Below, piece after piece: positions 12,369 to 17,211 of a DNA stretch of 64,000 nucleotides. The translations under genes were made by a program, and so were the position numbers. The notes under the pieces were generated by a model, which had not been told where the DNA came from, searched no databases, and was given only the letters and a program-made list of their open reading frames with translations. The stretch comes from Curvibacter sp. GWA2_64_110 (GTDB taxonomy: Bacteria; Pseudomonadota; Gammaproteobacteria; Burkholderiales; Burkholderiaceae_C): NCBI GenBank assembly GCA_001797315.1, contig MGPC01000018.1:186001-250000 (forward strand). The letters are read 5' to 3'. Numbering within the stretch: the stretch's first letter is position 1; each line of letters starts with the position of its first letter.

Positions 12369-12453
12369 GCCCGGGTGGTGAAATTGGTAGACGCAGGGGA
12401 CTCAAAATCCCCCGCCGCAAGGCGTGCCGGTTCGATTCCGGCCCCGGGCACCA
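12369..12453 (+). tRNA. tRNA-Leu (CAA anticodon)
   Basis: Acceptor GCCCGGG/CCCGGGC, long variable arm, GGTTCGATTCC T-arm, anticodon loop CTCAAAA (CAA), encoded CCA. Confidence 0.95.
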
Positions 12454-12454
12454 C
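12397..12454 (+). repeat. att-like direct repeat copy 1 (3' part of tRNA-Leu)
   Basis: 58-bp segment matching 15159-15216 with one mismatch (12404 A vs 15166 G). Confidence 0.95.
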
Positions 12455-12548
12455 GCGGGTTTCGCCTCTTTTCAGAGGCTGGTCGTTTCTACAAATCCCT
12501 CTTGCTTTCTACAAAACGACCTCCAGTTTAGGCTAGAGGGTTTCGATC

Positions 12549-12769
12549 ATGAGCGTATCGAGCGTGAGCAGACTACAGACCGAGACCATTGAGCTGCCGA
12601 CCGACGTGGCCGTGATGCTCAGGGCCGAGGCGCGCGCATCGCAAGCCGATTGCTACCTACATGAAGGAATGGCTCGTCGAGCAAGCTGAACTCCGCGCCG
12701 CGATCAAAGTCAACAAGAGCAAGCCCAGCATCGCCGCGGAGGATCTGTACCGCGAATGTGGTATCTGAA
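12549..12769 (+). pseudogene. Frameshifted RelB-type antitoxin
   Basis: MSVSSVSRLQTETIELPTDVAVMLRAEARASQ then a shift near 12648 into YMKEWLVEQAELRAAIKVNKSKPSIAAEDLYRECGI*. Confidence 0.65.
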
Positions 12770-12985
12770 GTACGAAAAGCCGGCGGCCGACACTTTCCGG
12801 CGGCTCGATTCCTCAATCCCACAGCGCATCAAAACCTACATGGCCGGTGTCTACCGGCCCGAAGACCCAACCGCAGTCGGTAACTATTGCCTGATCTGCC
12901 GCATTGAGCACGGCCAACTTCTAGTTTCCGTTGTCACGCTGGGGCACACCGCTCGACGGTGTACGACTGAAACGTCTCCCGGGCG
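12756..12985 (+). pseudogene. RelE/ParE-family toxin remnant with internal deletion
   Basis: MWYLKYEKPAADTFRRLDSSIPQRIKTYMAGVYRPEDPTAVG | NYCLICRIEHGQLLVSVVTLGH resembles RelE but lacks the central EALKG...FWKYRVGD-type block. Confidence 0.6.
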
Positions 12986-13133
12986 TTCAACGCAGGAGCT
13001 TGACCCGATCCCCGACGCGTGCTTTGACATAGTGCATCGGTCATGTCCCGATGCTTGTGCACCAGCAATCTGTTGCATCGCCCGGTTGAAATCCGCAACC
13101 CCAAGCAAAGACACTTACATAGAGATCCATAAA

Positions 13134-13151
13134 TTCCTACAAACGTAGGTT
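13134..13151. promoter_or_regulatory. hipBA operator 1 (degenerate), centre 13142.5
   Basis: TTCCT-ACAAACGT-AGGTT. Confidence 0.7.
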
Positions 13152-13184
13152 TTCCGGCTCCATTGAGGTTGCTCTTTCAAAAAA

Positions 13185-13202
13185 TTCCTATTAACGCAGG
13201 AA
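13185..13202. promoter_or_regulatory. hipBA operator 2, centre 13193.5
   Basis: TTCCT-ATTAACGC-AGGAA (AAATTCCT/AGGAATTT arms). Confidence 0.85.
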
Positions 13203-13235
13203 TTTTAAATCTCCCCATCTAATTTTCAAATTAAA

Positions 13236-13253
13236 TTCCTATGATCAAAGGAA
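13236..13253. promoter_or_regulatory. hipBA operator 3, centre 13244.5
   Basis: TTCCT-ATGATCAA-AGGAA (TTAAATTCCT/AGGAATTTAA arms). Confidence 0.85.
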
Positions 13254-13286
13254 TTTAATTTGAAGTTTTTCTAATAATCTATAAAA

Positions 13287-13304
13287 TTCCTATAAACATA
13301 GGAA
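13287..13304. promoter_or_regulatory. hipBA operator 4, centre 13295.5, adjacent to hipB start
   Basis: TTCCT-ATAAACAT-AGGAA. Confidence 0.85.
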
Positions 13305-13312
13305 TTAAATCA

Positions 13313-13651
13313 ATGCAGTTTAAGATCAATGATGTCTCAGACATCGCCATACTCATACGTGCGACGCGCAAGGCAGCACACATGCGGATTGATGACTTGG
13401 CAGCTACTGCAGGACTGAGCAAACAGTTCGTCGGCGATGTCGAGACGGCTAAACCGACCGTACAGCTTGCACGGGTACTCCAGCTCATGAATGAGCTAGG
13501 TGTGCACATGTACATCGATGTGCCCAAGGATGCGGAGGCCCAGATCGCGAAGCAGCGTGAGCATGTGCACATGCGCTCAAGTCAGCGCATGGCAACAACG
13601 CAGAAGCGGCGCCTAAAGCGATCCAAGCCGATTATTAAGGTGGAGCCCTGA
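13313..13651 (+). CDS. hipB: HipB-like antitoxin, XRE-family regulator
   Basis: HTH (MRIDDLAATAGLSKQFVGDVETAKPTVQLARVLQLMNELGV); directly upstream of hipA. Confidence 0.9.
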   Translation: MQFKINDVSDIAILIRATRKAAHMRIDDLAATAGLSKQFVGDVETAKPTVQLARVLQLMNELGVHMYIDVPKDAEAQIAKQREHVHMRSSQRMATTQKRRLKRSKPIIKVEP

Positions 13652-13653
13652 AC

Positions 13654-14976
13654 GTGCGCAGCCTCAACGTTAGCAGCAATGGCCACCCGGTGGGTGTCCT
13701 GCGCGATGAGAACAACATCTGGCAGTTCCAGTATGACCCTCAGTGGGTTTCGGATCGCTCAGCATTTGATTTGTCTCCTCACCTGAAACGAACCGACGCA
13801 CCGATCATCGATGGAGCGACAGAGCGCCCCGTGCAGTGGTTCTTCGACAACCTGCTACCAGAGGAGGAGATGCGGACAGCCTTATCCAAAGAGGCGAAGA
13901 TTTCGCACGAGGATGCATTTGGCCTGCTGGAGTACCTGGGCAAGGAATCAGCTGGCTCACTGGTGCTGCAGCCGCCTGACACGCAGCCAGCGCCCGCCCC
14001 TGGCGCGCAAGAGCTCACAGATGCAGAGTTATCCGAACGGATCAAGAATCTGCCGGTGGCTACCCTCAATAGCAAGGCGCCCAAGCGGATGTCGGTGGCC
14101 GGCGCGCAGCATAAGCTGCTCGTCATCTATGCCGACGGCAAGCTATACGAGCCCGTCGGAGCGACGCCATCGACACACCTCCTCAAACCCAACCATCCGA
14201 AACCGGATGAGTACCCCAGTTCGGTCATCAACGAATATGCAATGATGAAACTGGCTGATCGCTTGAACCTGACGGTGCCTAAGGTCTACCGGCACTACTG
14301 CCCTGAGCCTGTCTACATCGTCGAACGCTTTGATCGCGTGACACACGGCGAGACGCCGGCAAATGCAGCACAAACAGAGCGGCTGCAATTGATCGACACC
14401 TGCCAACTGCTCAACAAATCAAGGTCCTTCAAGTACACCGCGGCAACCATAGGAACACTGAATCAGGTCCTCAAAAGCGTGCGCCAAACCGGACCCACAC
14501 GCAGGCCGCTCTATCTCTGGTTGATCTTCAACCTGCTGATCGGGAACAACGACAACCACATCAAGAACATCTCCTACTTAATCGACGCCGAGGGGGTAAA
14601 ACTTGCGCCGTTCTATGACTTGTTGAGCACCGCCAGCTATCTCACGAAAGGGTATGCGAAAGTCGATGGAGGAGCCTGGCCACAGGTAGATCTGGCAATC
14701 CCCCTGCCGAGCCAACCTCGATTTGCGGATGTCACACGCCAGGAACTGCTGAAGGCAGGCGTGGCGCTTGGTCTGAAGTTACCGATTTGTGAGCGTGATC
14801 TCGATTGGATGCTGAAGAATATTGGGCCGAGCCTGGAAAGGCTCATTGCTGAGATCGAGGCTGAAAACACCACACTGCCACCGGAGTGTCATCCCTATCT
14901 GGGTGGCGAAATGCGGTTGCTGCGCACCATCCGCTACGTCGTGGTAGCTGAAATGGTGGCAAGACTGTCAACATAG
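13654..14976 (+). CDS. hipA: HipA-family serine/threonine kinase toxin
   Basis: SVAGAQHKLLV, HLLKP, catalytic GNNDNHIKNIS, FYDLLST motifs. Confidence 0.93.
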   Translation: MRSLNVSSNGHPVGVLRDENNIWQFQYDPQWVSDRSAFDLSPHLKRTDAPIIDGATERPVQWFFDNLLPEEEMRTALSKEAKISHEDAFGLLEYLGKESAGSLVLQPPDTQPAPAPGAQELTDAELSERIKNLPVATLNSKAPKRMSVAGAQHKLLVIYADGKLYEPVGATPSTHLLKPNHPKPDEYPSSVINEYAMMKLADRLNLTVPKVYRHYCPEPVYIVERFDRVTHGETPANAAQTERLQLIDTCQLLNKSRSFKYTAATIGTLNQVLKSVRQTGPTRRPLYLWLIFNLLIGNNDNHIKNISYLIDAEGVKLAPFYDLLSTASYLTKGYAKVDGGAWPQVDLAIPLPSQPRFADVTRQELLKAGVALGLKLPICERDLDWMLKNIGPSLERLIAEIEAENTTLPPECHPYLGGEMRLLRTIRYVVVAEMVARLST

Positions 14977-15158: not shown

Positions 15159-15216
15159 GGGACTCGAAATCCCCCGCCGCAAGGCGTGCCGGTTCGATTC
15201 CGGCCCCGGGCACCAC
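15159..15216 (+). repeat. att-like direct repeat copy 2 (displaced tRNA-Leu 3' fragment)
   Basis: GGGACTCGAAATCCCCCGCC...CCCCGGGCACCAC, 57/58 identical to 12397-12454. Confidence 0.95.
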
Positions 15217-15355: not shown

Positions 15356-16153
15356 TCAGACCGTGAACGAAGGAGGTGCATACAGCCTCCAGATCAAACT
15401 TCCGTTTGCAGAAAAACCAATCAGCACTGGGGTAAGCCACTCCAGCAGCAGCCATCGCATGTTTTGACTTTTTAAGAAAAGTTTGAAAGCATGATCGAAT
15501 CTCTCCAACGAAACGGGAATCCGATCATTGTTTAGAAGGACCGATGACTTCTCCAGCGATGACGCAACCTTACTCAAGCTCGTCAAAATTTCTTGGTTTG
15601 ACATTTGAAACGATACCAGCGTGGGATCTTGTGCGAGATCCAGATTCCCTCGAACCCCCTCCATTACGATGCGATGCTTTTCGTCAATCCGTGCCAACGC
15701 ATCTCGAACAGGATGCATGTTTCTAGCTGACTCAAGCCACCAGTTATAGAGCGTTGACTGACGAGGATCAGAAGGTCCATCTACTGACTCATCCCCGAAC
15801 CGTGCGGAAGTTAGAAATGCGACCTTCGCTCCGGTTAGACGTAACCGCCATTCCTGGAAAGCATCGATACTTCCCCAGAAAAAATGGACGAACAAATACA
15901 TGTTCACCAGCAGTAGTGCAACCATAACTTTTGTATCTGTCAATCCTTCAAATTGAAGGCCAAAGACGGCTGAATCTGTTTTGATCCGCAGATTCATAAA
16001 CACTGCTGCAAGACCGATTGAACTCCCGACAAGGAGGTGGGTTCTCATTTTTAGGACCACCTCCGTGAAATCGAGCATAAAAGGCTGTCCAAGTGCTTGG
16101 GCTACAGCATCTCGTTTCTTTTTCAGTTCTACCTGTTCAGTTGCATCACTCAT
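15356..16153 (-). CDS. Hypothetical membrane protein
   Basis: 265-aa ORF, hydrophobic segments near N-terminus and at C-terminus, low GC; no family recognised. Confidence 0.7.
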   Translation of the reverse strand: MSDATEQVELKKKRDAVAQALGQPFMLDFTEVVLKMRTHLLVGSSIGLAAVFMNLRIKTDSAVFGLQFEGLTDTKVMVALLLVNMYLFVHFFWGSIDAFQEWRLRLTGAKVAFLTSARFGDESVDGPSDPRQSTLYNWWLESARNMHPVRDALARIDEKHRIVMEGVRGNLDLAQDPTLVSFQMSNQEILTSLSKVASSLEKSSVLLNNDRIPVSLERFDHAFKLFLKSQNMRWLLLEWLTPVLIGFSANGSLIWRLYAPPSFTV

Positions 16154-16257: not shown

Positions 16258-17211
16258 TCACCCGATACCATCCAAAAACCCCTCCCGCACCGTCGGGTAA
16301 TGCAGCGTCACTCTTAGCTCGCTCTTCAGCCGCGCGTTGTCCATGCGGCGCGACTCGCTCATGAAACTCAGCAGCATCAGCGGCAGCTTGTCCTGCGCGG
16401 TCGTGCGCGGCACGCGTGGCGGGCGCGGCAGGCGGTAGAGGTCGGCCGCTAGGTCGAAGTAGTCGCCCATCTTCAACTGGGTGTCGTCATTGACGTTGTA
16501 GACGCGCTGCGGCCGGCTGCGCCACAGCGCGGCGATGCAGGCCAGCGCCAGGTCGTCGGCATGGATGTGGTTGGTGTAGACGTCGTCCTCGGCCTTGAGC
16601 ACCGGCGTGCCTTTGAGCAGGCGTTCGCGCGGTGTGCCGCCTTCGCGGTCAGGCGCGTAGATGCCTGGAATGCGCAGGATGCTGGCGCGCACCAGCGCAC
16701 TGCGGCCTAAGAAACGCACCCGCTGTTCGGCATCAACACGCCGCTGGCCGCGCGGCGTGCGGGCCTGGATCGGCCGGGTTTCACGCACGATGGCACCGTC
16801 GCAGTTGCCGTACACGCCGCTGGTGGAACCGTAGACCAACGCGCCGGGCAGCGAACGCCGCCGCAGCGCCTGCAGCAGGGCCTGGGTGCGCGGGTCGCCC
16901 CAGCCTTCCGATGGCGGTGGCGCCAGGTGCAGCACGCGCGTGGCCAGGCCGGCCAGGCGCTGCAGCGTGGCCGGCTGGTCGAGGTTGCCGGTCAGCGGCG
17001 TGATGCCGCGTGCACGCAGCTCGGCCTGGCGCAACGGCGAGGACGTCAGTGCCAGCAGACGTACCCGGCCCTGCAATTGACGTGCCGCGCGCAGGCCGAC
17101 ATCGCCACAACCGACGATCAACACGCGCTCGCGGCGAAAGCGCGCCGGCAGCGCGCCGAGGGGGCTTTGGTTTGAGGGCAAAATTCCAACCTTTGCAATC
17201 TGATGGTTCAA
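16258..17211 (-). CDS. NAD(P)-binding epimerase-like (SDR) protein
   Basis: RVLIVGCGDVGLRAARQL Rossmann motif; VYGSTSGVYGNCDG. Confidence 0.85.
   Translation of the reverse strand: MNHQIAKVGILPSNQSPLGALPARFRRERVLIVGCGDVGLRAARQLQGRVRLLALTSSPLRQAELRARGITPLTGNLDQPATLQRLAGLATRVLHLAPPPSEGWGDPRTQALLQALRRRSLPGALVYGSTSGVYGNCDGAIVRETRPIQARTPRGQRRVDAEQRVRFLGRSALVRASILRIPGIYAPDREGGTPRERLLKGTPVLKAEDDVYTNHIHADDLALACIAALWRSRPQRVYNVNDDTQLKMGDYFDLAADLYRLPRPPRVPRTTAQDKLPLMLLSFMSESRRMDNARLKSELRVTLHYPTVREGFLDGIG

Follow-up and report, generated by a model that had tools for sequence, protein, structure and literature searches.

The region upstream of a hipBA operon in Curvibacter sp. GWA2_64_110 raises the question of which protein would read the four palindromes of the form TTCCT-N8-AGGAA that stand there, and why they should be set at exactly equal distances (51/51/51 bp) from one another. 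Here, we addressed this question in a 64-kb stretch of DNA (64,000 nucleotides, hereafter the window) and in homologous loci. The number of the palindromes, their centres and their 51-bp spacings agree with what a sequence-only reading of the window had described, and the first of them, which it had called degenerate on its right arm, carries two mismatches in that arm. The palindromes and the genes that follow them are listed below.

13134 to 13151, no strand assigned: O4, degenerate candidate HipB operator TTCCTACAAACGTAGGTT, with two right-arm mismatches; centre 13142.5
13185 to 13202, no strand assigned: O3, perfect candidate HipB operator TTCCTATTAACGCAGGAA; centre 13193.5
13236 to 13253, no strand assigned: O2, perfect candidate HipB operator TTCCTATGATCAAAGGAA, just upstream of the predicted −35 element; centre 13244.5
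13287 to 13304, no strand assigned: O1, perfect candidate HipB operator TTCCTATAAACATAGGAA; centre 13295.5
13313 to 13651, plus strand: hipB, antitoxin and repressor of 112 aa, with an ATG start and a helix-turn-helix (HTH_3) domain
13418 to 13429, plus strand: SKQF recognition-helix tetrad of HipB (residues 36–39), the best half-site predictor among four-residue windows
13654 to 14976, plus strand: hipA, toxin kinase of 440 aa, with a GTG start and Couple_hipA and HipA_C domains

The HTH_3 match of HipB lies above the gathering score, and its TIGR03070 score of 50.1 bits falls under the cut-off of that model (71.65). HipA matches both Couple_hipA (80.5 bits) and HipA_C (141.4 bits) well over their cut-offs, is full-length, having both its N-terminal and its kinase domain, and in an alignment with E. 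coli HipA conserves the positions equivalent to S150, D309, N314, and D332. Only a single copy of hipA was found in the genome, directly 3' of hipB with a gap of 2 bp, and this order of an HTH antitoxin followed by hipA is that of a HipBA type II toxin-antitoxin system. Moreover, HipA is one 440-aa protein and is not split into HipS and HipT as in HipBST systems. The C-terminal Trp (W88) of E. coli HipB is universally conserved among the HipBs compared in an earlier study (PMC3376134); HipB of this locus ends in ...KPIIKVEP, without a Trp of that type.

As for the genomic setting, the 3' end of tRNA-Leu(CAA) recurs as a 58-nt direct repeat (98%) at 12397–12454 and 15159–15216, and these two copies flank a 2,762-bp unit with hipBA inside. 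Because two congeners (about 95% identical here) pass from the tRNA to about position 16277–16289 of the window within about 35–170 bp, the stretch from 12455 to about 16280 is an accessory insertion at the tRNA site, and no integrase was recognised inside it. A broken ParE/RelE-like toxin-antitoxin remnant (12540–13148; weak Pfam ParE_toxin match, E 0.029) separates the tRNA repeat from the operator array, and the second half of the insertion carries a 265-aa open reading frame on the minus strand (15356–16153) that matches no Pfam family and is possibly an accessory gene.

Perfect matches to TTCCTN8AGGAA in the 64-kb window all fall within the hipBA array, and with up to two mismatches allowed there are 25 matches, where shuffled sequences lead one to expect 10.7. 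Across the whole 3.4-Mb assembly, the A/T-flanked form WTTCCTN8AGGAAW occurs in three places only, which are the perfect sites O3, O2, and O1, and the reversed control pattern does not occur at all. A chance origin of the palindromes was ruled out by this genome count together with the shuffles.

To identify what reads the palindromes, we gathered hipBA loci by protein search, both from genome contigs, at the levels of family, order, class, and phylum, and from plasmids. Among the genome contigs, 81 distinct upstream regions were obtained, and the named plasmid loci were treated apart from these; searching for HipA across the class with a strict E-value made few additions. The half-sites differ among the homologous arrays and include TTCCT, ATCC(T/C), TCGA, ATAT, TTCAC, GCCT, and others. 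Here, we noticed that they follow the recognition-helix tetrad of the cognate HipB: TTCCT accompanies SKQF in 15 of 18 cases (the rest being AATCCT or ATGCCT), ATCC(T/C/G) accompanies SENF in 17 of 18, S/GHVF goes mostly with TCGA, and G(P/A/Y)VF, GPVF included, goes with ATAT. Over all pairs of loci, which are not phylogenetically independent, tetrad match and half-site match correlate at r = 0.76; the partial correlation is 0.66 for the tetrad given the rest of the domain, and 0.08 for the rest of the domain given the tetrad. No other four-residue window of the HipB domain predicts the half-site as well as residues 36–39. Moreover, among locus pairs that are 35–45% identical outside the tetrad, those with an identical tetrad share 4.7 of 5 half-site letters, and those with one or two matching tetrad residues share 1.4–1.9.

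Since the half-site tracks the recognition helix and the array is conserved in front of homologous hipBA genes, it is very probable, as judged from this covariation, that HipB reads these palindromes, and the earlier designation of them as HipB-type operators thus gains strong support. These four putative operators upstream of hipB also accord with a HipBA assignment of the locus. Equally spaced repeat arrays are known as well for replicon iterons and for nucleoid proteins, and the locus lies in an accessory islet, so that the palindromes might bind some other protein (a global regulator, or one that acts on replicon iterons) with hipBA merely adjacent. We find this hardly credible, however, given that the half-site follows the HipB helix from locus to locus, that the sites occur nowhere else in the genome, and that no replication gene was seen within the islet.

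The spacing was examined across the same homologues by a motif-free lag scan, in which the best 20-nt self-match of each upstream region was taken at lags of 20 to 130. The mean self-match peaks at lag 50 (13.5) and lag 51 (11.8), against an overall mean of 9.7 and, for shuffled sequences, a mean of 9.6 and a maximum of 10.0. The best lag is 49–52 in 52 of the 81 loci and 100–102 in a further 15 (together 67/81). A palindrome-pair search that allowed all distances from 18 to 120, without a spacing prior, placed 64 of 81 loci at 49–52 or 98–104; in the controls, 5.8% of shuffled sequences and 2 of 81 hipB coding sequences gave 49–52. When HipBs were clustered at less than 50% identity, the best lag (within 20–90) was 49–52 in 26 of 33 clusters, and at less than 40% identity in 12 of 17. 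Arrays of two to five sites each could be reconstructed at 61 of the 81 loci, with spacings of 49 (7), 50 (77), 51 (40), and 52 bp (4) that are conditioned on the search range of 48–53, and the family mean pitch is 50.3 bp. The degenerate O4 holds the same lattice position as its equivalents in homologous arrays. On plasmids, the lag scan gave 50 and 100 for Rhizobium T136, 50 and 99 for R. tumorigenes, 51 and 102 for Delftia acidovorans, 50 and 100 for both Acidovorax carolinensis and Alteromonas 76-1, and 49 and 98 for y4mF of S. fredii NGR234. Several distant loci on the alphaproteobacterial side showed no array at the thresholds used.

A periodicity of about 50 bp is therefore the rule among the hipBA loci examined and not a peculiarity of this one. 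Random spacing in homologues, which had been named beforehand as the result that speaks against HipB operators, was not seen; instead, 49–52 bp recurs nearly everywhere outside the E. coli-like clade. In most of the related pairs examined, the ruler is kept while the sequence of the landing sites changes.

Exactly equal spacing and A/T-rich filler are also what a recent tandem duplication of a 51-bp unit would leave behind, and such an origin had been suggested from similar A/T-rich filler between the sites. The filler is A/T-rich (13%, 23%, and 45% GC), but it is not similar, since adjacent fillers are 26% identical, which is the level expected by chance. In addition, the same pitch is found in homologues with different half-sites. 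We thus consider a recent duplication very improbable and the proposal largely refuted in that form; at most, an ancient duplication may have occurred.

The pitch may in turn be viewed against the helical repeat of DNA. At 10.5 bp per turn, 51 bp makes 4.86 turns and 50.3 bp, the mean of the family, makes 4.79 turns, which is about 0.15–0.25 turn below a whole number, so that neighbouring sites would be rotated by 50–75 degrees relative to each other; identical facing would need the bound DNA to be overwound (about 10.1 bp per turn) or bending to compensate. The earlier suggestion that all sites lie on nearly the same DNA face is hence correct only in part, since exact phase would need such overwinding or bending. 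Helical phase by itself was rejected as the constraint: in the best-pair histogram, the phase-keeping alternatives of about 40 or 61 bp are essentially absent, with no spacing near 40 and one of 62, the latter from a pair well upstream at a single locus (L010). Given this absence, it is the distance itself that is kept, and not only the phase.

How the array relates to the promoter was assessed in 55 loci brought into register at the centre of O1. The highest TTGACA score falls at O1−37 and the highest TATAAT score at O1−14, with a 17-bp spacer, and the following elements can be placed accordingly at this locus.

13259 to 13264, plus strand: predicted −35 element, TTTGAA (or TTGAAG, shifted 3' by one base), where the family has its O1−37 peak
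13282 to 13287, plus strand: predicted −10 element, TAAAAT, at the conserved O1−14 position
13300 to 13304, plus strand: AGGAA, the O1 right half-site and sole Shine-Dalgarno-like stretch before the hipB ATG, 8 nt before 13313

O2 ends just 5' of the predicted −35 element and O1 starts at the last base of the predicted −10 element, which is why the start site is expected near the O1 centre. O1 thereby overlaps the end of the predicted −10 element, the predicted start site, and the ribosome-binding site. At 33 of the 55 loci, among them the present one, O1 carries a Shine-Dalgarno-like word in its right arm, and in all 33 it lies at −11 to −17 relative to the start codon. Among the remaining 22 loci, O1 lies mostly at −20 to −25, and 10 have a separate Shine-Dalgarno-like word after O1. 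The difference in O1 position between the two groups gives p = 6e-7 (Mann-Whitney, uncorrected for kinship). O1 would therefore cover the promoter end together with the predicted start site, and at many loci the ribosome site too, as far as these predictions go. With a Shine-Dalgarno-like sequence as the right arm of O1, the palindromes could also be imagined to work as RNA hairpins that control hipB translation, but a transcript starting near the O1 centre, as predicted, would not allow O1 to fold whole and would leave O2–O4 untranscribed from this promoter. We give the hairpin explanation next to no weight.

Taken with the conserved pitch, this geometry makes it likely, in our judgement, that the four palindromes are autoregulatory hipBA operators set to a ruler of about 50 bp (49–52) that holds across the family, and on which neighbouring HipB(A) complexes would be in contact and bind cooperatively. 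A HipB dimer, alone or with flanking HipA, would bind each palindrome through its SKQF recognition helix. On O1, HipB(A) would cover the end of the −10 element, the start site, and the Shine-Dalgarno sequence, on O2 it would abut the −35 element, and with both sites filled the core promoter would be enclosed, by analogy with E. coli HipB and HipA. Adjacent complexes would touch across a constant interval of about five DNA turns, and the resulting cooperative filling could produce a sharp switch that opens once HipB is lost. The cooperative wrapping or looping proposed in the sequence-only reading may likewise take place. In E. coli, HipB fills its four palindromes cooperatively and HipA acts as co-repressor (PMC3920265), HipA flanks the HipB dimer on both sides and the DNA is bent by 70 degrees upon binding (PMC3920265; PMC3376134), and the hipA7 mutant G22S implies a HipA-HipA contact on the promoter (PMC7029023). 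As a counterpoint, HipA of this locus has Asn in place of Gly22, which in E. coli has been connected with dimerisation of HipA on promoter DNA, and the position is variable within the family.

Contact may, however, not be needed for all of the array, as promoter geometry alone could explain the O1–O2 spacing. The palindromes could be HipB operators without any contact between complexes, in that O1 and O2 bracket a promoter with a 17-bp spacer and the upstream sites are ancient duplicates at about 50 bp, serving as decoys or extra sites. The promoter does keep a constant phase within the O2–O1 interval, about 50 bp is about the room that a core promoter takes, and duplication of a unit would leave an array of equal pitch. 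Yet O3 and O4 repeat the same pitch with no promoter to bracket, and O2–O3 and O3–O4 hold 50–51 bp across HipBs less than 50% identical. Identity between fillers has fallen to the chance level (mean 0.29, with 0.26 for shuffled sequence and 0.26 at this locus), and a pitch that drifts by no more than 1–2 bp despite this decay calls for selection on distance. We thus regard operators without contact as unlikely. Because the promoterless intervals keep the pitch while the filler has decayed to chance, selection has probably acted on the distance, and contact between neighbouring complexes would be its simplest reason. Most likely, then, HipB(A) binds cooperatively at a fixed interval of about 50 bp and occludes the promoter and ribosome site, with a contact between complexes that we infer.

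Comparison with E. coli K-12 hipBA shows the same gene pair and order, an HTH antitoxin, a kinase toxin with conserved catalytic positions, and, 5' of hipB, four palindromes whose 5-nt arms are separated by 8 nt. In contrast, the E. coli sites are TATCC-N8-GGATA, centred at −125.5, −97.5, −58.5, and −30.5 before hipB and so spaced 28/39/28, whereas the Curvibacter locus has TTCCT half-sites at 51/51/51, which places it outside the E. coli K-12 subtype. E. coli O1 is also further from the start codon than Curvibacter O1. Since E. coli HipB is cooperative at 28/39/28, contact at about 50 bp is not a general requirement. HipA of this locus falls in a different part of the HipA tree from that of E. 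coli. In a quick tree of 88 HipAs, with several long branches and an arbitrary root, E. coli and four relatives with 27–28-bp or irregular spacing form one group (support 99) that is nested among lineages with arrays of about 50 bp, and we leave the direction of change unclaimed. Two of the E. coli-like loci show a shorter regular pitch, with best lags of 28 and 56 (L098) and of 27 and 54 (L100).

Other known systems share parts of this arrangement. Legionella hipBST carries three operators at even intervals, with 53 bp between successive sites; they are conserved from species to species, and HipB binds them in vitro (PMC10653801), though these sites are 18 nt with six-nt arms and the toxin is split into HipS and HipT. 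Assignment of Legionella hipBST to the same lattice was rejected, as the pitch of L. adelaidensis hipBST, read from sequence, is 71–72 bp and not 51. A partial precedent is found in hipBA1 and hipBA2 of Caulobacter crescentus, which the text of two reports (PMC7029023, PMC8545095) describes as in keeping with the higher-order complex of E. coli, and that text gives no spacing and reports no family-wide ruler or half-site code. S. fredii NGR234 y4mF (annotated as a Y4mF family antitoxin) and hipBA-like pairs of Rhizobium likewise have a 49–50-bp array before the antitoxin gene, but with contiguous palindromes of the TTTCCCG..CGGGAAA type and the recognition helix GLRF. Another Burkholderiales hipBA is that of Acidovorax citrulli, whose HipB binds its own promoter in EMSA (PMC11990009), in passages that describe neither an operator sequence nor a spacing. 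On a B. pyrrocinia plasmid (L114, 2001–4231), a HipB-like regulator is followed by a protein annotated as DUF4132 instead of HipA, which is possibly a different partner for a HipB-type antitoxin. In a literature search that lay outside the main structural papers, we found no published description of a family-wide ruler of about 50 bp, a half-site code, or O1 as a ribosome site, and priority for the ruler and the code cannot be claimed firmly.

Regulation of HipBA, the founding persistence module, has been modelled on E. coli K-12. A broader proposal, to which we would assign a little less than even chances, is that the ruler of about 50 bp is the common HipBA architecture, maintained through direct HipB-HipA contacts in a regular nucleoprotein array whose site sequence drifts with the helix, and that the E. 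coli K-12 complex, the basis of present structural models, is a derived exception. If most HipBA operons use this ruler, the E. coli promoter complex would be unrepresentative, and if the ruler is general, most bacteria may have another way of keeping HipA inactive on DNA. Moreover, the four-residue recognition code would predict HipB targets from sequence, and a conserved distance combined with changing half-sites would offer a simple system for learning what sets cooperativity, be it contact distance or helical phase.
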